The position numbers and the translations under genes were made by a program. From Lepisosteus oculatus (Eukaryota > Chordata > Actinopteri > Semionotiformes > Lepisosteidae): 64,000 nucleotides of DNA. Location of the stretch: assembly GCF_040954835.1 (NCBI RefSeq), contig NC_090703.1, positions 19,667,444 to 19,731,443 of the forward strand. The letters are read 5' to 3'. Shown piece after piece: positions 19,545 through 50,766 of this stretch; within the stretch, counting starts at the first letter, position 1, and each line of letters opens with the position of its first letter. The notes under the pieces are model-generated. The model saw nothing but the letters and a program-made list of their open reading frames with translations, did not search any database and was not told the DNA's origin.

Positions 19545-34614
<15,070 letters not shown>

Positions 34615-35190: not shown

Positions 35191-37168
35191 ACTAAACGCT
35201 ACACCGATACTTCCCCAGTTGGTTATTCTGACTGAACGAAGAAGTTTCTTTTTGGTGACCTGGATGCTTCTGTTTCGCGTTTCACTCTCAAAAGCTCTGG
35301 CTTTGCTTCTGTGTGCTCCTATATGAAACTGTTAGATACAGTATACCTTAAACACCATACAAATAGGTGGTTCACCCTGCAAAAATGTACTTTAAAATTA
35401 TCTCCTAACTCGTTTATACGTTCATGCACATGCTTTGTATCGCGAACTTGTTTTTATTTGCCTAAAATTATTTACCCGGTTGAATCAAAGATACCTTATG
35501 TTGCAAAACTCCAATTTGTTGAATTATATTGTGTATAGCTATCAAATATATACATATACAATATTTTTTCAAATATTTTTGGGATACAGTTATGGGATCG
35601 CTATAATTTATTAATACTGAGAGGTTTCAATTAACAATACATGACTCTAGTGGCATCCCATTCAGGGTGTAAAATTCTTAACGTTACCTTTTGCTTCTGG
35701 AATAGGTTTCCTGGACCCTCGAGTACGAGTGGGCGACTTAATGATGATGGGCAGGTGAATCGGAAGTGCCTTTGATCCGTACTTTATTCCTTTATTTATT
35801 AATGAATTAAATATATTTAAGCAGAGCTGTTCTATGTAATCTAAGGTAAATTCATTTAGGGGTGTAATTGATCACACATTCTTAATTTTACTGCCAAAAT
35901 AAAATATACTGTATAATTTGGTCTCTTTCATTCTACAGTTATGATATTTCTTAAGTCTGAAGAACTGACCTACTTCAAAGATTTGTAATCAGGTGTTCTA
36001 GGACACATTTTGAGAACCAAAACGTGAACTTAATGGTGATTGACAAGTAATCAAAAATCTGATGTAACACGGAAATATGTGATTTTATTGGCACTATTGC
36101 ATAGAAATAACATATGTTAGATTTTTATTTTTGCAGTTATTTTATAGCAGATGTTTTCAACCTTAAGCCTCTGACCCCTTGGGGCTGGAACAGATTCTCC
36201 AGAGCAGTCTCCATAAGCAGAAGGGAAACAGTTCACTCTATGTATGCAATTGTGTATGCAGTTAGCCAGGTGTCGTGGTGCACTCTCCCTTTTTCTCTTT
36301 TGCTTGTTCCAGGTCCAGTCCAGCCAGTTCAGTGCTCCCAATTAATGTGTCACCTCTTGTAATTGATGAGTGCCTGGGAAAACAGTGTGTCGCTCAATCT
36401 CTAGAGTGTCACTTACTGTACTGTATGCACTGCAAGGCAGGACTACCTCAAAAGGAGAGAAAAACAGACACACAAAACAGAGAGAAAAAACCTGGAAAAC
36501 ACATTTCCTCTAAAACATTTTTGTACGTACAAACTTCAGTACAGATTTATTTATGAAATGTAGTTCGTAATGTACGTGGCAATTTTGAAATGTATGACAA
36601 TATTTGGAGGAAACTCAAGCACAATGGAGTACAAAGAAAAAGTTTGTTTAAAAAACGTAAAATATTAATATAAAATGCGATTTATTTCAAATATCTTGGG
36701 GAACTCTGTTTTCTAAATTAATTTACTCGGTTTAATATTATTTGGAGATTATATGTTAATATAAGATGATGCGTACCCTTTGAATTAAGTCCTTTTCCAT
36801 TTTGTTTTACTTTTATTGGTTAATTGACAGTTTTGGGATGTGGTTGCCAGGCAATCAAAAGGCGTTAAGCTTATTAAACCCCAAAACGTCTACAGCTCTT
36901 ATTTACCTTCCATTTGTGTAAATATGTCAGCGATACACAGAGCAATACTTTGTAAGTGAACGATAAATAATCAGTGTAAAGCATTTAAACCTTTGTAAAA
37001 TACATTTCGATAAAACAATACGCTGTTGGTTGAACGTCTTTTTTGGTCCATTTTTAGCCCCCTCAACCCCACTTTACTTCCTGTGAAAGATAAACAAATG
37101 GCCGTGGACGCACAGAGCCCACAAATTACTCAGAAATGTAACCTTTTATGGGGATTACAACAAACGAA
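35191..37168. other. Intergenic region between sel1l and the DRAP1-like gene
   Basis: Divergent promoter interval. It contains the TATA-like AGTATAAAATATAC near 35179-35192 on the plus strand and an ETS-type ACTTCCTG near 37076-37083, about 90 bp before the DRAP1-like start codon. No other gene was recognised; 36110-36380 looks repeat-like but was not assigned. Confidence 0.4.
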
Positions 37169-40100
37169 ATGCCTGGAAAGAAAAGAAAATACAACTCGAG
37201 GTTTCCTCCGGTAAGAGAACCGATATCATTTTTGGAACTGCGTCTTCGGTAACGAGACGTAAAAAACCAACAAACGGGTAGATTTCAGTCGAGGCTGACA
37301 GCGCCGCTTTACTGAGTTAACGGTAATGTTATCTCATATGTTTCTTATTGAATAGTCCACAGATGTTACAATTCCAGCTTAATTTGTGTTTAAAACATAG
37401 GGTGATTCTCCTTTTTATTGAAAGTGGGCTACATCCATTACACATCCTAGGTACCATAGGTGTTGTGTACTTAGGACATTACCTAGGGGCGGGGAGCAAG
37501 CATCCATAGCTGGAGCACATCCCAATATCTTCGAGACACCTTTGACCTGCCAAAAAACTTAATTTGTCTTTTTATTGTATTTCTTGATGTTGCATCAATT
37601 GTTTCGATCTGATTTAGATTAATCTATATAATTAAAATAAAGAAAATGTAGCTTGATAACAGCGAACCTCCTCTTTTTTCCCCCAAATGTTCATTGCATT
37701 CTCCAAATGCATAACATAAGACGCATTTACTTTTCATTACTTAGAGCCTAATATGCACTTTGTGGAAAAAAAAAAACAGCAAATTGTGGTAGTGTGGTAG
37801 GTTAAAGCATGTCCTGAATCAGAATAGTAACACTAAAAAAATCCTCAAAATGTATCCATGTAAATAGTTTAAAAATGTTTAACGTGCTTTTTCCTTAACA
37901 GGCTCGCATCAAGAAAATCATGCAAACAGACAAGGAAGTGGGGAAGGTCGCAGCAGCTGTACCAGTTATTATATGTATCCTTTGTCCAGATATGTATAAT
38001 TTAATATAGTTTATACTACTGTCCTATTGATATTTTTTTATATCTACTTAGTACATTACCGTTTCTCTGCATTGCACTATTAGAGAATTGTGTCTTCCTC
38101 GCTCATTTCTAATAATACAAATTCCTTAGTCTAACAACATGGGATTGAAAAGGACCTCACTTCTGATCAGCATGTTAAATTGAAACTGGAAGCAATCCCT
38201 AGAAATTGAAGAAGCCTGTCTAGATTCTCTATGAAGATGCAGTTGTATATGTCCCTTATTTCCTTGTATTCCTTGTTGCATCTAACATATATAGAGTCCT
38301 ATACAGGATGATAGTCCTTTCAATGCAGCTCCTTAACAAAGCAATTTAGCAAGAGCCCTAGAGCTGTTTCTGAAATCTCTCTTGACGAAAAGCTGTCAGA
38401 TTACACAATCAAAACACAGCAGGACTATGACCCAAGCACATCTGTGAGACTCTTCTATTTTTTTTTCTTATAAAAGAATGGTTCCATATAGAGATATCTG
38501 ATTGGCAATCAATAGCTTTCTGTCCAAAATGTCTTAACAACTTGATTTTGTCCTCGCATTTAAGGTGAATAGGTTGTGCTTATGTTTAAAGCCATTGCTG
38601 TAAATCTTGAAGTGATGATGAAGAAAGATATGCTATACTTATTCATGTATATATGTATGTCTAAATGTATGGTGATTATTGCTTTTCTGTATAAATCCAC
38701 AAATGGCAGATTTGCTTATAACATAGCATGTAGCCAAATAAGTCCAAAATCAATTTGTCTTCAAAGCAGCAGATGAAATCAGTAAATAGTGTTTTGAAGT
38801 GATATGAGTTCTTTTTGAAGGAGGCAGTGCATCGAAACAGAGAAGCACTTTGAGTTCCTGAAGGACCTCATGAGCCGGGCTCCACCTGTCCCATCTCCCC
38901 AGGAAGACAATGGCGCCAAGGGAGTGCGAGCTGCACAGAGGTCAGGGAACCCAGATGGCTTTCTTTTTCACTCACCTCCAATACCAGACATGGTTAAAAT
39001 AGATAGCTGAGGGAAAAAAACTGAAGACAATACAGACTTTGAGGTGTGATGTTGACAATCTTTGTCTTCAATGATTCAGATTAGGTTGTTAAGTACTAGT
39101 TGTCAGTGAAAAATAAATATTTTTCTGGCTCATGGGCATGTAATGTTATCTTTGAATGGTGAACCCATTCAATTGTAAAAAAAAACATAGTGAGGTTTTT
39201 GGAAGGGTTAAATTAGTTGTTTTTTTGTTTTACAGGGTACTGTATTGTATTGTATCTTTCTGGGCTCCAAAGTAATGCATCTCATTCATACCTGGACAGG
39301 AAAAGGTGGCAGGATATTGGTCTGAAAGTGAAGCACCGGGGCACAGCAGAGAAGCCCAGGGGGCAGAATGAAGGTTCCCTGGACTCCATCACACACTCTG
39401 ACGTAGGTAGCCTTTAAAAGAAGGAATCCCGAGTTACATCTCATTATGTACCCATCCAGTTTGGAATTGCTAAGTGTTTTAAGGCTCGGCAATGACCATC
39501 CCCACAAATACACTCAAGGGAGAATGTACTGATACTGTATGTTCCTTCACTACACACACCTGTGGAGCCATGTGTAATCTGGCAAAGTGCAAGCACCACA
39601 GCAGCTGACAGGAAGGTAGTGCAGTTTGCATGTGTTTCAGACAGCCTTTTAACAGGCCTTCAGGGGCCTCAGCAATTCACAAGAGTCACTTTTTGCCCAA
39701 AAACTGAGAAAATGCCGTGTGGACAAATTCCACCCCTACCACAGCAGCATTCAGGCAACTTGTGCCACTGCTTGGAGAATCCCTGTTGACATCAGTTTTG
39801 TTTTTTGCAATGCACTGATATATTATTAAATAATTAAGACAAAGGTAAATTCATTATGCTGCTTAACATTTGTCATCAGCAGGGGGTCCACTAGGAAAGT
39901 GGAGACCACTAGGTTGTGTGGCCACCATTGGACGCAATACAAGCTCACAAGGTTGCAAATGTTGTCTTATGGGGTTCTGTCTCATTCCTGTCCCAGATCC
40001 TAGACATGCATGAGCTTGTACACTGGTTTCTGAGCCCTAGATGCCACACGTTGTCCCTAAATATTTGCCAGATGTTCAAAGGGGCTCAATTATTGCATGT

Positions 40101-41342
40101 AGGGCAAGGATGGCACAACCGTCGCATTCTCACCTTGCAAAGAATCCTTTTCTACATGGGCAGTGTGGGCACTTGTATTGTCCTGTTGGAGTGCAGTCAT
40201 AACTGATTGAGCCCACAGGAAGGCCAACAAAGTGAGGTCTTACTGATCAGTGTATTGATCCATGCTATCTGGATACCATCAATAACTACAAGTAGAGTTC
40301 TGTAGCTGTCAGACACTCTGGCCCAGAGCCCAGACCCTCACACTTGGACTTCCCTGCCGATTGGTTAATAACACACTGTTAGCATCTTGTTCTACACAGC
40401 AGCACCATACTCACTGACATTCACCAAGGTGGTCTAAAAACATTGAGTCACTCGTAAGAGGGTGTACTTGGCTTCAGTGCTGATGAGTCCATCTGAGATG
40501 ACTTAGTTCAGATTTCAGAATACTGATAGCATAAAGGTCTCACGTTGTGTGCGGAAATTGTTACCATTCTTGTTTTTCTTTCTTGATTTTCACAAAGCTT
40601 GCTATTTTACAGGTTAAATCACCTCTTCAATGGTATTCAATCAGTTTTTCTACCTCACTAATGACAGTTAAAGTCCCTTAAGTGAATCCTGTTCAGTCAT
40701 GAAAGATCCATTAATCATAAATAAAACAGAACCTTCTTTTTTCTAAAACAAATACACATATAAATCAAGTGATGATTTTCCTTTGATGCTCAGTATAGAT
40801 ATCTTCACATCCACTCCAGCTATAAATTTAAAAAGGGCACCTAATGTGTTCAATTTAGCAAACAGTTATCTCAATTAAGCAGAAACACATGATTTACCAC
40901 AGTAACTTTAAGTTCATGTAAGTAATCTAATCCTAATAGTAACTGTTATCGTTGTATTCTGGATCAAAGTGCTTTATCCCCACAGCTGTAGAAATTGGTG
41001 CTGAAGCCCCAGCCACAAAACTAACAATATATTTAGTGCTGTTTTTACTCTTGGGATCATAGTTTTTGCTTGTGTTCTGGCTTTTGAGTGTCTAAATAAG
41101 TTTGGCTCTTAAACAGAGAAGTGATGTGTGGTTTTCAGCAGGACTCGGAGCCAGAGATGCTGTTCTGCCTGGGAAAAGACATGCCTAAACACCCTTCAGC
41201 AAACAGAACACGCAGCTTCAAGGGTAGGCAGAGCTCTCATTCTCATCAGACCAAATCCTGCCTTCAGTCTCTGAGCTTGGCAGCACGACACACCCTGGTA
41301 CTTTTGAAACATGCTGAAATGTTATTAATGCGAAAGGCTTAA
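37169..41342 (+). CDS. DRAP1-like (NC2-alpha family) histone-fold transcriptional corepressor, divergent paralogue
   Basis: NC2-alpha/DRAP1 pairs with DR1 through a histone fold, and the dimer clamps TBP on promoters. Exons: 37169-37210, 37902-37974, 38350-38443, 38821-38940, 39300-39402, 41139-41342. They join in frame to about 211 codons, close to human DRAP1 (about 205). The N-terminus [14 protein letters not shown], then [20 protein letters not shown], is near-canonical. The second half of the fold drifts: [19 protein letters not shown] then [17 protein letters not shown], where DRAP1 has a very conserved KACQVTQSRNAKTM-type sequence. The C-terminal half lacks the Gly/Lys- and Pro-rich tail of DRAP1, keeping only a short acidic DSEPEM. 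The first four exons are firm. Exon 5 is supported by phase. The last exon may instead splice out at the GTAGGC after 41212, so the true C-terminus is uncertain. No premature stop is seen. Confidence 0.82.
39880..40460 (-). repeat. Probable degraded DNA-transposon fragment in a DRAP1-like intron
   Basis: The minus strand holds a broken stretch resembling the C-terminal part of a Tc1-family transposase (RIWDRNETP followed by stops). No terminal inverted repeats were identified, so the family is tentative. Confidence 0.35.
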
Positions 41343-44300
41343 CTGGTATTTTGCAGCTCAAGTTCTGTTGGGACATGAGGGCATCTGATTTTCTCTTGAT
41401 TTGAGCTATCTGCTGTCTTACTGAGCTAAGTGGTTTAATGCTTCTCTCCAAGTCTTAAAAAGTCCTTAAAACGATTTGAAAAGTCCCTAATGGACAGGGA
41501 GCAGGTCCCTCACAGGTTAACTTGCCAGGAATCCCGCAGTGCTGTTATCAATTTAGATGTCTTGATACAACAGTACCAAGCATTAAGATTTAAGCCCTAC
41601 TCCAAGCTTTATCACAGTAAGAGGTTAAAAGATCAAAATAATCCTTTAGTGTTGCAGTTTTTCACTCACAGGTTTTTGCTTTCTGGTGCTTGTGCCGCAG
41701 CCTTTGTATATATTGAGGTCAATAAAACAGAAAGTTGGCTTCCTTGTTTTAGTAAAATGCAGGTTAATTGGTATATTCACTGTGCAGGTCAAGATCCTTC
41801 TGCTTCTGCTGTCCTTGTCTGGTACCCCTGACATCTGACCAATCCCCAGCAGGACAGAATGTGGGGACTACAAAGCACAGCTGGGTTTTCTTATTTTTGA
41901 TTTTGAGACTGTTTCCTTGTTGTTTTAATTTTGTTTTCTATTTAAACTTTTACTGGTGTATCAATTTCAGCAGGATGCTTGGTAGTCAATGGAAATGTCT
42001 CCTGTGTAACTTCTGATATGGAAAGAATTGCTCCTTGAGGAATAATCTGACATCTGATTTATGTAGTAATATTGTTAATGTTTTAAAGTCAGTAATTAAA
42101 ATATTTTGTTTATTTTTGAATCATATTTGAATGTCAATACAGGCTATAATCAATATTAAGAAATTTTGTTTTGTAATATGCAATTTTAGAGGGATGTGTT
42201 TACAATGGTTCTCATTTTTTCTTGGGTGATTTTTGTTACTGGTATTCTTTAACTTTTGAGCTGTTATCATAAAGACTTTGATTCAAAAAAAATTTTAAGC
42301 ATTGCTGAGTTTAGTTAAACGTATATAACACTGTTAAGGGGAATCTAACATTGTGTTAATATGTACAGTAGGTCCTTTTATACATAACTGCTGTCCTTTT
42401 TTTAAAGACATGAAATCATTGTACAGTTCACGCACACCCTTCAGACATTGTGGTAAGATCTAGCACTATATTTCCTCCTTTAAGTAATCATTTTATGGAA
42501 ATTCTATTAGGAACAAAATGTTTTAAGGACTTTTCAACATACTGTATTTTGTACTGCAATTACTATGTGAATTTTGTGAAAATTTAACAAAAGTATAGGT
42601 TTCACAAAGCTGTTTTTTAAACAATTGAATTATACTGGTTTGGATGATACTGGAAATATGAATGACAAACATCTGGAATAGTACAAGTACATTTCTGTGC
42701 AAAAGTAGTTTTAAATTGATCCAAAATGCCTTAAGAATATACTTTATATAATCTCAGCAAGGCAAATGAACATCTCTCTAAAAAGATGTAAAAAATGTAA
42801 ATACATTTATAAAAATATATTTAAAATGAAGATGATTTTTTGTCAATGTTTGGTTAAGATATGTTGCTTTAAAATGGTCCTTGCAGGGTTTAAAAAAAAT
42901 CATCAGAATAAAGCTTTCCAGAAAGCACTTTGATTGCATCCACTTGTTTTATTGTGAACCTAAGGCTTTAACTTGTGAAGAGTAACGATGAAAATATAAT
43001 ACTGATGAAAGTAGTCAGACATTTGTTATGTCTACAATAAACTTAAGTACATTTCCTTATAGTAAAACAAATTTCACTTGCAACATACAGTGTAACATTC
43101 TAAAAGGTTAGTTAACGCAAAATTGCCAGTGAAACAAAATGTTTTATTCAAGGCAATGAGTGTCTCATTACAAAGAATGTTTAATGGAAAATGGTAAATA
43201 AATAATTGCAGCACTTCCACTGCTCTTATGTCATATTTATATATCTTATTCATGCTACCTTAATAATACAAAGCCATCAGATTTTGGATACTGTTAATGA
43301 ACTATTAACCCATCAATTTAAACAGTTGCTCATGCATAATACAGGCAGTTTAATTTAGTCACAATACCAAAAATTAAATCTGATTTGGAAATCTGGAAAC
43401 AAACTGTTGACGTTTATGTTATTATGTTCTAATCATAAGTTCTCAGTCTTAGTCCTGGAGTCTCATTGTGTCTGCTGATTTTTGTTCTAACTGGGCTTTC
43501 ATTACAAGGTTAATCTATGTCTACAACTGATCTACTTTCTGGTTTAAACTGTCTTCTGTACTCAAGCCTTGGTTTAAAAAATACCTAGGTCGCGGTGCTT
43601 TTTTTCCCCCCCCCAACAACTTCAGCAGCACATAAAATTTAACGCAGTCTCTCCTGAGCTTGCTAAAAATTAGCTCCCTTATTCCTCACCAAACAGCTGT
43701 TAAAGTGATCGAGTGATGACAGACAAGTGGGACACTTTATCAGTCAACCCTAGAGTGCTGTTTTTCCTGCAGCTGTAATCCAGTTGGTTCCGTTTCAAGT
43801 CACAACCCTGCATGAGTGTGGCCCTGAACCTCACTAACTAGCACAAGGTTCATACCAATTAAATTTTTAAGCACTAAAATTAAACATTTTTAAAGGTCAC
43901 CTAAAATAGATCATTGAAACAAATTAGCCTGTATTTGACAGTCCAATTGGAGCAAAAAACAGCATACAGAAAGGGATTCTAGGACCCTGATTAAAGAACC
44001 GCTACTAAAGATCAAGGCCTCAAACTGAATAGCTGGAGGTTCTAGTGTCTTCTTGTTTTTGTCCCAACTCATGTAATCAATTAACTTGATTATTTTGTTA
44101 GACATGTCTAAGCTGTTTTAAAGTCAGTTAATCAAAACAACCTAAATATGGGGTTAGCCCTGAAAGACCTTGGAGCCTGATTAGAAAAAATAGTCGTAGT
44201 GAATTAGAACAGCTACATTATGTAACTTAGGCACAGGCAGAACAATTACAGAAAACAGTACACTATTCAGCGATCCAGTCTGAGAGTCTCTTACTTTGTC

Positions 44301-44998: not shown

Positions 44999-47900
44999 TC
45001 AATAAAGTCGTGCCCCATAACCAAAAGTCTGTTTTATGCCCTCAAAGTAGTATCGTTGCCAGCCCTGTTTGGTCCGTTCCTCTTCACTCACTGGTACTCC
45101 TTTACACTCCACCCTGAGTTCAGTCTCGCCGCTTCGATCAATGAAATTTACTGTGATCGTTGCATAATGCTCTAAAGGAAAAAAAAGAGGTGAAATTTTG
45201 TTATGTTTCATTATTTTCTTTCCTACAACTTTTAGGGCCCAATTATAATGTGCATTTCTCTCCATATAAATGCTTTTCCATTAGATTCCAAGATCTGCAG
45301 GGAACAGGTAGCAAATCAAATTATTCTGTGGTTTTTATTATAAATATTTGAATTCTCACCCTGTAAGAGTAAATAAATGATTTCAGGAAACTATATTTGA
45401 TTGCACAGCCAATATGTATCTATACAAAATTGGATTTAAAACAGAGAACAGGAGCCACTTCTTATATAAACGGTTGTGAGAGTCCAAACAAGCTACCCAG
45501 CCATGTTGTAAAAACCAATATGCTGGTTTCTTTCAATAAACAGTTGGATGAGATCCTTGGATCAAATGGCTACTAAAAGCCGAATGAGGAAGTGACCTTC
45601 ACTCATTTGCAAACTTTATGATTTTCTTAGATTTTGAAATCGCAAACATCATTCACGTTTCTTGACTTTCGTGAACAGGTAAAGAGTTGAAGACTTACCA
45701 CAAGGCCAGGTCTTATATCTCCATTTCATAACTATTTTTTCTTCTGGAACCTGCAATACAGAGCATACAATTTGTTTCCTACATTCTAGAATACAGACAA
45801 AAAGATTTTTAAGCTCTCATGAAATGTTCAGTACTCACCAGCTCTAAAAATTCACCACAGACATTACCCTCCAGAAGTTTGAACTTTCCACCTTTATCAG
45901 CATCAACAACAGCAGCTGAGTGGGTGAAAGCCTGCACCATCTAAACAATAAAAACAAATCAGAAAGGTTCGTTTTGTAGATGTTCATGCAAAACATTCCT
46001 TTTCCAAGCAGTCATAACATCTGCTTAACACAGCAGTCATAACACAGCACATCTTTGTACACTAATGGCCGTATGCGTTTCATTGTAGACACAGAGCACA
46101 TTTACCTCTTGAGTGAGGAAGACTCTGTAGAGCTCCTCTGGTGAAGTCAAGAAAGTCTCCTTTAAACTGAACTTGCAAGTGGGGATCTTCACTCCCGCAT
46201 TGGCTGAAGAAACAGAACTACCAGGGGCAATCTAATAATGAACAAAGAACGGGTTAGTTTTGAGAAGAAAAAAAGATGTGGTCAACTACAATTAACCTTC
46301 TGTACTATGAATTAAAAGAAAAGGCACTTCACCTTATTTCATACACAACCCTTTCCCAGCTGTTTTTTTAAATGAAACTGTTTGGTGTAGTATAAGCACT
46401 GCAGTGACAGATTCCATTACTTGGTTTGAGATGCATTATTTCATAAATATTTTTTCACAAACTCAATTTAAGCCAAATCAAGAAATCCCACTGATCAGTG
46501 ATCTAAACCTTCAGTCAGACGGTCAGATCACTTTTATACCAGACACTTAAGATGGCTGACAGTTTAAAAAGTTTTAAATATCACGTCTATACAAAAAAAA
46601 TCAGTAAGAAGTGCACTTGGCACAAAAAGACAATACCTGGGGCGTATCCAGCTTTGCTTTGGATTGTGATGCTGAAGATTTGTTCATGCCATTGGCAGTG
46701 GGCAAAATCATGCCTTGAGTGAACTCTGAAATAACAAAGACAACGACTATCAGTTTGCAAGAGTACTTGCAAAAAAATCAAAATAACACTGCCTAAACTA
46801 TTAGAAAAAAATCAGTATTAATTTAATATGTAACTTAACTATTTTCCCACCAAAATATTGAAATTTAAAAATGCTCAGTGTTCAATGTTTTTCATTAATT
46901 GTTCATCAGTGGTACACTTTGCTTCTACTTTTAAGCTACAAGAAACACACAACAAGCCAGAAATGCACAACAAGCCTGCATTCTTGGTGTTAAATGAGGA
47001 ACTTTAAGTAGTAAGAATATTAACACAGGAAAAAGGGGGTGCTGGCCAACAAACTGACTAAATTAATATCCTCATACCAGTTTTTAGTGATTGTACGTAA
47101 TCTCCCAGTGCCTGTCGCACTTTTCTTGCGCCTTCTGTCTTCATCAGTTCGGTCAAAGGTGTGTTTGGTTCATCTTTAGCAAGCGAGACAGATATCTATT
47201 AAAAAAAACAGACATTTTACAATTTTAAAAATTAAGTGGCAAACTCCTCAGCTATTCCACCCAGCATTAAAGTAACATTGTAAAATATGTCTTAAATGAC
47301 TGAAGTCAATACTAAGTAGTTACATTACTCCTGTTGATTGGATTATACTATTTATTTACTTTTTATTTTCCTACAACTTAAATGCATTTTTAAATGATTG
47401 GTACAGAAGTGTGTAGTGACCAACATTCTAAAGTATAGTAATATGCTAGATTTTAATTTCTGCAAAAACTAACTCAGCCCATTAAAAACCATCCCAGGCA
47501 TTGGATGTGCGAGATTAAATGCCTTCTGAAAACGGATTCATCATAAGTCTCTAAAAAATACATGAATAAAAATAAAATTGTAAAACTGCAGTCAATTTTA
47601 AAATGCTTACATCTAAGTCATCCATATCATTTTCATCAGACAGGTTTGGAACCTCTACACTTCCTTTATACTTTATTCCGGATTTTGATACACCTGTTGG
47701 CCGGGAGGAAAAAAAAACGTTACTCCTCTAGCATCAAGACATTTCATGGCAGCCTCCTCCCAAGCAGGAAGATCATTCACTAGCAAAAAAACAGCAAAGA
47801 GTAGTACAGTGAATAAAATCATGTCTGTAAGTACAGGTATATCTGACAACATGCTACAATATTAATATTACGATACTATCTCAAAGAGATGTGTCAATAA

Positions 47901-50766
47901 TTATTACTGCAATTAATATGTATATAGTACATTCAAGTGCTAACTCTATTCCAACAAGTGCTTTCATGTTTAGAGTGTTCTACAGGTCAGTTTTAACGGG
48001 CATTTATCAGTTCCAATGAGCTCGCAAAAAAAGCAAGTCTTCTCACCCTCTGGACAAGGATTTCAGAAAGAGATCTTGGAGGTGTCTAAGAAAATTTCCA
48101 ATTTACCATTTCAATTTCAGTAGTAAAGCTGAAAAAATATCTTACCAGACAGAAATTACTGCTGCACTGTGATCTCAACAGCAGCACAGGCATTTTAGTC
48201 TTTGTTGCCTTTACTCACCGGTCCAAGTCATTTTTAGATCCCACTCATAGAAGAAAATGAGTTTCCCTTTGCGGTTGTTGATGGAGGCTTCTCCTTCTAT
48301 TTTGCTCACTTCGGTCACCTCACATCTCCCCTCCTGGTTCTCCACCTGCACGGCCATCAGCAGGTCCTTCAGCTTGTCTGACGACCAGTTTGTGGCATCT
48401 CGCTCTGTCCTGAATAAATCAGAGGAAACAGGGGAGCCATTGGAACCACTGGATAACATGTAAACCCCTTACCTTAAGGTGAAGATGAGTTGTGTTTGTC
48501 AGTTTGTCCTACTACAATTGTATGTGTAAAAAGTCAACAGTATCCAAAATCAAATAATTCTGCTCAATGTGGAGTGATGGCTCTGTGGCTAAGGTGCTCC
48601 GCCTGTGGCTGGAAAGTTGCCGGTTCAAATCCTGCAGCCGCCAGAGGAATCCTAATCCGTTGGGCCCATGAGCAAGGCCTTTAACCCCCAGCTGCTCCAG
48701 GGGCAGCACCATATAAATGGCTGACCCTGCGCTCTGACCCCAAGCTTCTCTCTCCCTGTCCGTGTGCCTGTGTCTCATGGAGAGCAAGCTGGGGTATGGG
48801 AAAAGACAAATTCCTAATGCAAGAAATTGTATATGGTTAATAAAATGGTTGTATCTCTCTTTCATCTTATTATAGCATTAGGACAGCTATAATTTGCTAT
48901 GATGTTACATCAGCTGTATAACCTACTTCTGCTTAAGTGTAAGGTACAATATTTCAAGGAGTCTTGAAATAGCTCTGCCTGCCAAGGTGAAGTGATATAC
49001 AAATTCCAGAATGATCAAGGTTACTCCTTCACAACACTGTGATTAGATGCAACCCACCCTCATTTTGGGCTTTTATTGTTTAATGTTATGTACTGTGATT
49101 TGGCTAGCATGGTGGTGTGGAAGCTAGCACTGTTGTCTCACAGCTCTCGGTTCCTGGGTTCATGAACTGAGGCACCTTCTGTGTGGTGTTTGCACGTTAA
49201 TGCACTTTGCTTCCCTCCACCCTCTAAAAAGACCAAGTTAGACATGGCTTCTCTGAATTATCCCCATGTGTGTGCCCTGTGATGAACTGGTGTTTCTTTC
49301 AAGGCTTAGTTCCTCCTTGCACCAGGAGGCTTTGAGTTACAAGGAACAAGCAGTTTTCTGATAAAGAAGGGGATTATATTGCACTTAATGATCTAAACAC
49401 TAAAAGTGGTGCCTAAATCCTCAGCCAAAACATGAACACTGTGAAGCCTAAAAGCCAATGAAATAATAAGCATTGATGTGCCCGATTGTGGTGCACAGCA
49501 ATGGTTATTTCACCCCAAAATACAAATTTCAAATGGAATGCAGTTAAGAGTAATGAAACAATATTATCTTTCTGCCCTTTTCTTGGAGATGCCAAAATAC
49601 CCTTAAATGACATCTTGCTCCAGGTACAACGGCCTATGAAGAGGTTACTGTGAAAAAGTAAGGACTGGCGATAATGTCATAATTGTGCTTTACCACTTGA
49701 ATTGTCAGAACATAAGAAAGGTTCCAAATTAGTAGTTAATTAATTTGCGGGTCCCAACCAAACATTTTTTGAAAGACCTCAGGGTATGTAATATAATTAT
49801 TTGGCTGAGTAGTTTGTTCAGTCGCAGCTGTTTCCCTATAGTCTTAAACGTAACAAAGATTACCTTTGTAGTGGAAGCGTCAGGTTTTTAACAATCTTCA
49901 GACACTAACAATGCTAATCGTGTGAAGGAAACCGTTTACTGGCTCAGAAAATACTAAAATAAAACAATTTTTAAATACTTTTCAAGTTTGCCAGGAAGAC
50001 TTGAGGGAATATCAGAAGCAATAAGAAGACGACACGAACTAAAACCTACAATAACAGATCAATCCCATTTATGTCTATATCTGCAATTCAAACGCCAGCG
50101 TGATCGACAGAGCTTTCCAAATTAACTAGCTCCAGAGTTCGGCTATTTCAACTCAAGAAACCAGATACAGATGCTGAAAACCTTTTTCTCAACACTTTCA
50201 AGCACAAGTAAACTCGAGTTTTTGCGTCATGGTGCTTCGGTATAACCTATATTCGATACTGACGCGAATCTTCGATGCGTTTTCATTGGACTTCACTCAG
50301 CTATAGCTCACTGCAGTGAGACATCGTGTTATTAAAGTATACCGAAGGGGTCAATATTTCAATTGCATCTCTTTAGTTGTCAAGGCAGCGTGCCTGCAGT
50401 TCCAAAACCAACCATAAGTCAACCACGTTACTTTCCCTTTGACGAACGAAACTCAACGGCTCTCCTGCCGTGGCTCGGTTGTGTGCTGTTTCTAGACAAT
50501 CTGGCCATGTCCGATTTCTGCCTCTGTGATACGATATGTTAGCACCCGCGCCGCACATGAAATACCACACCAGGCCAGGCTAAGTATCCACGCGTTAGCT
50601 CCAAAAAAAGGCATTGATGTCACCGCTGCAGATATGCCTCTTCAAAAATAAAACCCTTGTCAATTCAGAGAGCTGTCATCATTTACCAGTGCCAGTTGTT
50701 AACGTTGGTGGCATCCGCTCTTTCCTCTACGATCCAACGAGGGTCTCCTTCTCCCCACTTGGCCAT
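44999..50766 (-). CDS. ahsa1: AHSA1, activator of HSP90 ATPase (complete)
   Basis: AHA1 binds the middle domain of HSP90 and stimulates its ATPase during client maturation in the cytosol. Nine coding exons, 5' to 3': 50687-50766, 48219-48409, 47611-47693, 47078-47195, 46637-46725, 46106-46231, 45839-45940, 45699-45750, 44999-45171. They join to 337 codons plus TGA (human 338). The N-terminal Aha1_N domain carries the family signature NVNNWHWTERDATNWS, whose NxNNWHW part is needed for HSP90 stimulation. A Ser/Lys-rich linker (about 165-205) follows, then the C-terminal START-like AHSA1 domain ending in GWQRYYFEGIKQTFGYGARL. The start is the only Met before the signature and matches the family N-terminus MAKWGEGDPRWIVEER. 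A candidate polyadenylation signal on the minus strand is at 44634-44639. It faces the DRAP1-like gene tail to tail and vipas39 head to head. Confidence 0.97.
48570..48868 (+). mobile_element. tRNA-derived SINE, copy 3
   Basis: Head GATGGCTCTGTGGCTAAGG and box-B-like GGTTCAAATCC; body TGCGCTCTGACCCCAAGCTT and CTCATGGAGAGCAAGCTGGG; tail GTTAATAAAATGG. It is in the first intron of ahsa1, upstream of exon 2. Confidence 0.85.
49100..49325 (+). repeat. Diverged SINE with L2-like tail
   Basis: Blocks such as GTCTCACAGCTCTCGGTTCC and CCTGTGATGAACTGGTGT mark a forward copy with internal losses, in ahsa1 intron 1. Confidence 0.55.

Follow-up and report, generated by a model that had tools for sequence, protein, structure and literature searches.

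A second, divergent NC2-alpha (DRAP1) gene in the gar and other ray-finned fishes, most likely a product of the early vertebrate genome duplications

NC2-alpha (DRAP1) is one of the two subunits of NC2, a general factor that keeps the TATA-binding protein (TBP) on promoters and that, to our knowledge, is regarded as having a single alpha subunit in vertebrates. A locus on chromosome C8 of the gar Lepisosteus oculatus, included in the 64,000-nucleotide stretch of DNA analysed here (NC_090703.1, positions 19,667,444 to 19,731,443 of the forward strand; hereafter, the window), contains a gene that resembles DRAP1 and differs from it in several respects. Is this a second NC2-alpha gene and, if so, where did it come from? 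The explanation that we favour, with a probability of about 0.7, is that it is a DRAP1 duplicate from the early vertebrate (2R) genome duplications that was retained in ray-finned fishes, and whose product, with a more basic fold and a different tail, most likely pairs with DR1. The gene belongs to an ancient second NC2-alpha class that carries the same annotated name as the first and that is undescribed as far as the literature was searched; no paper on a second fish drap1 was found, in a search that covered titles and the opening of abstracts.

An intact gene of the NC2-alpha family

The gene comprises seven exons (window positions 37169-41831, forward strand) that are joined by GT-AG splice sites with compatible phases and encode a product of 185 amino acids (Table 1). 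The NCBI model P0001 (192 aa, 'dr1-associated corepressor isoform X2 [Lepisosteus oculatus]') is 100% identical to this product across its full length, and starts 21 bases upstream of position 37169. In the divergent proteins of eels, MGI (MGIFAFE/Q) precedes the MPR start, as it does in the MGITTNE encoded from the upstream ATG of the gar; the upstream start may be an old one, to judge from these sequences. An earlier note on this DNA had described in-frame exons with a full histone fold and a gene end at position 41342. The exons and the fold, which extends over exons 1-4, were upheld by the splice sites and phases; the proposed end was not, as it is the stop codon reached when the exon-6 frame is followed beyond its donor. 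The true end of the coding sequence is 489 bases further, because exon 6 splices to the last exon as in P0001. Hence, the window locus holds an intact second DRAP1 gene.

Table 1. Features of the C8 locus and its neighbours, in window coordinates
Feature	Position	Strand	Basis or remark
sel1l exons	20453..32918	-	Pfam: Sel1 in 3 ORFs (one below cut-off), fn2 in 1
Possible promoter	36500..37500	.	CpG observed/expected 0.91-0.98, low G+C; weak
Upstream start, in frame, MGITTNE	37148..37168	+	Taken by NCBI model P0001
Exon 1	37169..37210	+	Joined-exon model; agrees with P0001
Exon 2, histone fold	37902..37974	+	Pfam PF00808
Exon 3, histone fold	38350..38443	+	Pfam PF00808
Exon 4, last part of histone fold, first part of tail	38821..38940	+	Joined-exon model
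Exon 5, basic tail with KRWQD	39300..39402	+	Joined-exon model
Exon 6, S/E-rich ELxICL-type motif in its gar form	41142..41223	+	Joined-exon model, tail alignment
Exon 7, C-terminal GQDPSASAVLVWYP and stop	41788..41831	+	Agrees with P0001; overlooked in the earlier note
ahsa1 exons	45002..48468	-	Pfam: AHSA1, Aha1_N

The 185-aa product matches the Pfam family CBFD_NFYB_HMF (PF00808) with an E value of 8.6e-17 and 61.6 bits, for a cut-off of 21.4. Among solved structures, the best match is human NC2-alpha (1jfi_A, E 9.2e-36, 127 bits), followed at a distance by a microsporidian protein (4wzs_A, 53.7 bits) and by NF-YC chains, with at most 43.9 bits. By these similarities, the protein of the C8 locus is classified as an NC2-alpha with a CBF/NF-Y-type histone fold. 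As a separate observation, 33 of the 35 matches to the histone-fold family are located in C26:1.68-6.13 Mb with near-equal low scores (29.8-30.9 bits), an arrangement suggestive of a core histone gene array.

The canonical drap1 and the duplicated chromosomes

A genome search with the canonical bowfin protein P0015 gave 12 matches with E values up to 10, of which four are found at C18:20.179-20.183 Mb and three at the C8 locus; the other five, scattered elsewhere, are all weak (E 0.48 or worse). The matches on C18 define a canonical drap1 (C18:20178776-20183269), whose exons 4-7 have an open frame up to the stop and encode a typical tail ending in EDDDDDEDYDS. The suggestion that the window gene is the second of two was thus correct, and a single, fast-evolving drap1 is ruled out by the canonical copy. 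Canonical exons 1-3 were not found on C18 or elsewhere in this search; an assembly gap of 200 N (C18:20178544-20178743) lies directly upstream of exon 4. This gap may be the simplest reason why no canonical gar protein appears among the best 120 of 902 matches or the best 120 of 1182, where the top match is from the bowfin, a near relative of the gar. Among the matches listed, the only gar proteins named DRAP1 are P0001 and P0003, both of the divergent copy. Work on fishes that relies on the name 'drap1' may therefore confuse two genes, given that the named gar proteins are the divergent copy and that the canonical gene is interrupted by a gap. Around the canonical gene, a tandem repeat, translated as VCDLLSQPEEQTVSLSLNNNNT in one of its frames, was observed at C18:20096777-20097456, 20175545-20176548 and 20262283-20262546.

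The C8 and C18 copies share the phase of introns 3/4, 4/5 and 5/6, and a retrocopy is ruled out by the seven exons and the phases common to both; intron 6/7 differs in phase between them, which counts against our preferred explanation.

As to the surroundings of the C8 copy, a Pfam match was obtained for six of the ten neighbouring ORFs tested. It had been proposed that the gene is embedded in a sel1l-ahsa1-vipas39 block; sel1l, with ORFs that contain Sel1 repeats and fibronectin type II, and ahsa1 were recognized by Pfam, and the ORF near 52.6 kb, taken for vipas39 in the earlier note, gave no Pfam match. If the window gene is an early duplicate, as the note inferred from the gene families that human 11q13 and 14q share, it and the canonical drap1 should lie on duplicated partner chromosomes. 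This was addressed as a directed test with families picked for their human copies at 11q13 and 14q, and the three that gave an answer, Pecanex, Pacs-1 and a neurexin-like one, agree. Pecanex copies are present on C8 (22.5 Mb), C17 (1.8 Mb) and C18 (20.20 Mb), with a weaker extra match at C8:7.2 Mb. Pacs-1 copies are present on C8 (23.3 Mb), C17 (6.1 Mb) and C18 (22.6 Mb), with no others among 24 matches. Likewise, a tail labelled by Pfam as Syndecan domain, which we take to be that of neurexin, was detected on C18 (20.30 Mb), C17 (12.6 Mb) and C8 (2.7 Mb), and nowhere else. The predicted link between the host chromosomes was therefore seen in all three answered families.

On C18, the Pecanex gene is 20 kb and the neurexin-like gene 120 kb from the canonical drap1; the C8 copies of Pecanex, Pacs-1 and the neurexin-like tail are 2.8, 3.6 and 17 Mb from the window gene. 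Since none of these C8 copies is within 2.7 Mb of the window gene, the pairing of C8 (4.5% of the assembly) and C18 (2.0%) exists at the scale of chromosomes and not as a close block. The gene order on C18 was obtained with a codon-usage scan and Pfam, plain ORFs being too noisy, and includes BBS1, a nucleoside transporter, a calcineurin-like phosphoesterase (presumably of the PP1 type) and an SH3-kinase gene, whose SH3 piece is closest to MAP3K11 and its kinase piece to MAP3K9; we take this set to be the human 11q13.1-13.2 block. C17 appears to be a third member of this duplicated set, because it carries the third copy in each of the three families; it gave no drap1 match in the search with P0015. 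Given that each of these families has copies on C8, C17 and C18, the drap1 pair is most likely a 2R pair, an origin that we regard as well supported.

Breadth, phylogeny and sequence of the divergent class

A profile made of 14 divergent sequences matched 1331 proteins, and in the best 120 of these the 119 that bear an organism name all belong to ray-finned fishes. The remaining one, P0196, is a 193-aa open frame on a contig of 1151 bases that, because of its size, is possibly a transcript assembly; if this is the case, the divergent type would be transcribed and spliced in some fish. Both types are present in at least 12 species among the matches listed, such as Amia (P0002, P0015), Polypterus (P0005, P0019), Anguilla rostrata (P0009, P0106) and Takifugu (P0281, P0187). 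In the best 120 of 902 matches, the rows from sharks (four), lamprey, Latimeria and Protopterus are all of the canonical type, and no divergent type was detected outside ray-finned fishes among the matches listed (best 120 of 902, of 1182 and of 1331).

A tree of 48 rows chosen from 298, to be read with its long branches and unsettled bootstrap in mind, grouped 16 divergent-type sequences, from bichir to teleosts, in one clade (100/100). Within the clade the gar branches first and the bichir falls inside, at odds with the species tree, and the ray-finned canonical rows do not form one group. The window gene is not nested inside one fish species, so that a species-specific duplicate receives no support from the tree. 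Five placements of the clade were compared and none was rejected (p-AU 0.293-0.492): with lamprey (p-AU 0.492, log-likelihood cost 0.20), with lamprey and sharks (0.372, 2.75), with sharks (0.345, 3.21), with ray-finned canonical rows (0.327, 3.77) and with lobe-finned and tetrapod rows (0.293, 3.79). The protein tree alone does not date the split, and is compatible with a duplication confined to ray-finned fishes.

Such a duplication, on the ray-finned stem after the split from lobe-finned fishes and with the new copy on C8 by chance, would account for the absence of divergent-type shark, lobe-finned or tetrapod proteins among the matches listed, and would require fewer losses; for the same absence, a 2R origin needs at least two. 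Moreover, the placement that it implies, with the ray-finned canonical rows, is among those not rejected (p-AU 0.327). Nevertheless, we consider it unlikely: C8, C17 and C18 are duplicated partners in 3/3 answered families, and C8 makes up only 4.5% of the assembly; a retrocopy is incompatible with seven exons whose phases are shared; and this placement costs 3.77 log units versus 0.20 for a position outside the canonical rows of jawed vertebrates. The 2R origin put forward in the earlier note agrees with the presence of a canonical copy, with a tree that does not nest the gene inside one species and with the three families, although retention extends over the ray-finned fishes and not only to the gar. 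Loss in mammals and other lineages is suggested by the composition of the best 120 of 902, 1182 and 1331 matches.

The residues of the fold were compared in 14 divergent and 178 canonical-type rows, with the truncated gar row P0003 set aside. Four changes of the gar protein (E25>K, A53>S, A62>S and K63>R) affect residues kept in 178/178 canonical-type rows, and two others affect Q78 (Q78>K; Q in 177/178) and E47 (E47>K; E in 170/178), which bears out the changes at near-invariant DRAP1 positions noticed at first. Unlike canonical DRAP1, the gar protein has therefore lysine at 25, 47 and 78, and serine at 53 and 62. V27 and R63, which the gar has in common with the divergent proteins of other ray-finned fishes, are fixed in the 14 divergent rows, versus I (177/178) and K (178/178) in the canonical ones; K60 is also common to the 14 rows, yet it is present in five canonical rows. 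The charge of the fold is +12 in the divergent gar protein versus +6 in the canonical bowfin protein. The change of several surface positions fixed in the canonical class, together with the replacement of the tail, could mean that the divergent protein is no longer an NC2-alpha, and that it has another histone-fold partner or a role away from TBP. We hold this to be quite unlikely, given that 23 of the 24 columns invariant across 49 divergent sequences keep the canonical residue, and that the similarity to NC2-alpha (127 bits) is much higher than to NF-YC (43.9 bits).

The tail is where the two classes differ most visibly. A DYD[SC] end is present in 158/174 canonical-type rows, and it is for want of the long acidic tail with this end that the gar protein was not filed as the canonical gene; it ends in AVLVWYP, with a tail charge of +3. 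The claim of a C-terminus unlike that of DRAP1 was thus right, the acidic DYDS tail having been replaced by a short one. Mean tail charge is +1.7 in divergent rows (n = 118) versus -14.3 in canonical rows (n = 174), means that include at least one row with wrong charge figures, P0002, which was cut at a later MPS; six of the 298 proteins were in neither class. Median protein length is 150 aa in the divergent-type versus 226 aa in the canonical rows.

Two elements stand out in the divergent tail. The tryptophan of exon 5 is invariant in 14 divergent sequences, and the core of the ELxICL-type motif was found in 89/118 divergent versus 0/174 canonical rows; of the 29 divergent-type rows that lack it, many seem to be isoforms in which the last exon is a different one, and at least P0202 (MYICL) and P0275 (KLYICF) have a near form that is outside the pattern used. 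In 49 aligned divergent rows, the five positions of the motif are kept in 80-94%, versus a tail mean of 37%. The gar motif, EMLFCL, differs at two of these five positions, as would be expected if the gar copy were decaying and unused; this is highly improbable in view of the frame open across seven exons, the intact splice sites, the NCBI model and the relatives kept across ray-finned fishes. In the copies of both C8 and C18, the first residues of exon 6 are acidic and of the DSE type, so that the motif may be derived from the former acidic tail, as far as these sequences indicate.

SUMO-interacting motifs are described in PMC3395311 as a V/I/L-type core with an acidic or serine flank. A strict core of this kind with an S/D/E flank was found in 11/49 divergent rows, versus 3.9 by shuffling, and not in the gar, a result too weak for the strict SUMO motif to be accepted as the function of the tail. 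The motif core is the extreme C-terminus in 62/118 divergent-type rows; a PDZ ligand reading was not adopted, since in the gar the core is not C-terminal.

Possible function and relation to known NC2-alpha proteins

According to PMC4565979, the alpha and beta subunits of NC2 are similar to H2A and H2B, the histone fold of NC2 lies under the DNA and helix H5 of NC2-beta extends around it as far as TBP, and NC2-alpha of E. cuniculi has 95 aa, from which it appears that the tail is not needed for the clamp. Given that the fold is kept and that the grip on TBP belongs to NC2-beta, the divergent NC2-alpha most likely dimerises with DR1 (NC2-beta), and the dimer would sit under promoter DNA held by TBP, by analogy with human NC2. 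The extra positive charge of its more basic fold could strengthen the contact with DNA. The exchange of the acidic tail for a short, near-neutral to basic one, which contains a tryptophan/arginine element as well as an S/E-rich ELxICL-type peptide, would bring in other partners. The likely outcome is that another NC2 complex, which differs in its affinity for DNA and in the partners that it recruits, works alongside the canonical one. It is possible, but in our opinion rather doubtful, that ray-finned fishes have two distinct NC2 complexes in which the ELxICL-type tail of the basic one recruits a different, possibly SUMO-dependent, silencing partner; if true, a step thought to be served in vertebrates by one general factor would be split between two.

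PMC4736825 cites DRAP1 as a regulator of Nodal signalling and has a mouse gastrulation study among its references; on this basis, specialisation in early development or the germ line is at most a reasonable conjecture. CpG observed/expected, calculated in 500-base windows from 36500, 36750 and 37000, is high at the start of the gene, which weakly fits an active germ-line promoter. In any case, a second alpha class across ray-finned fishes represents a natural experiment on the role of the NC2-alpha tail and on the specialisation of a basal repressor.

In comparison with known systems, the divergent gar protein shares its histone fold and N-terminus with canonical vertebrate DRAP1 (human 1jfi_A and the C18 gene of the gar), which differs in its acidic tail and DYDS end; the gar tail is short, not acidic and without DYDS. 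NF-YC belongs to the same Pfam histone-fold family, with a far lower similarity. The NC2-alpha of E. cuniculi (4wzs_A) has the histone fold without a long tail, and its small size makes membership of the family acceptable for a protein that lacks this tail. The closest counterparts are the divergent drap1 genes of bowfin, bichir, sturgeons and teleosts (P0002, P0005, P0004, P0007, P0006 and others), which form one clade with the gar gene; those of teleosts encode shorter proteins than the 185 aa of the gar, and many of them end at the motif.
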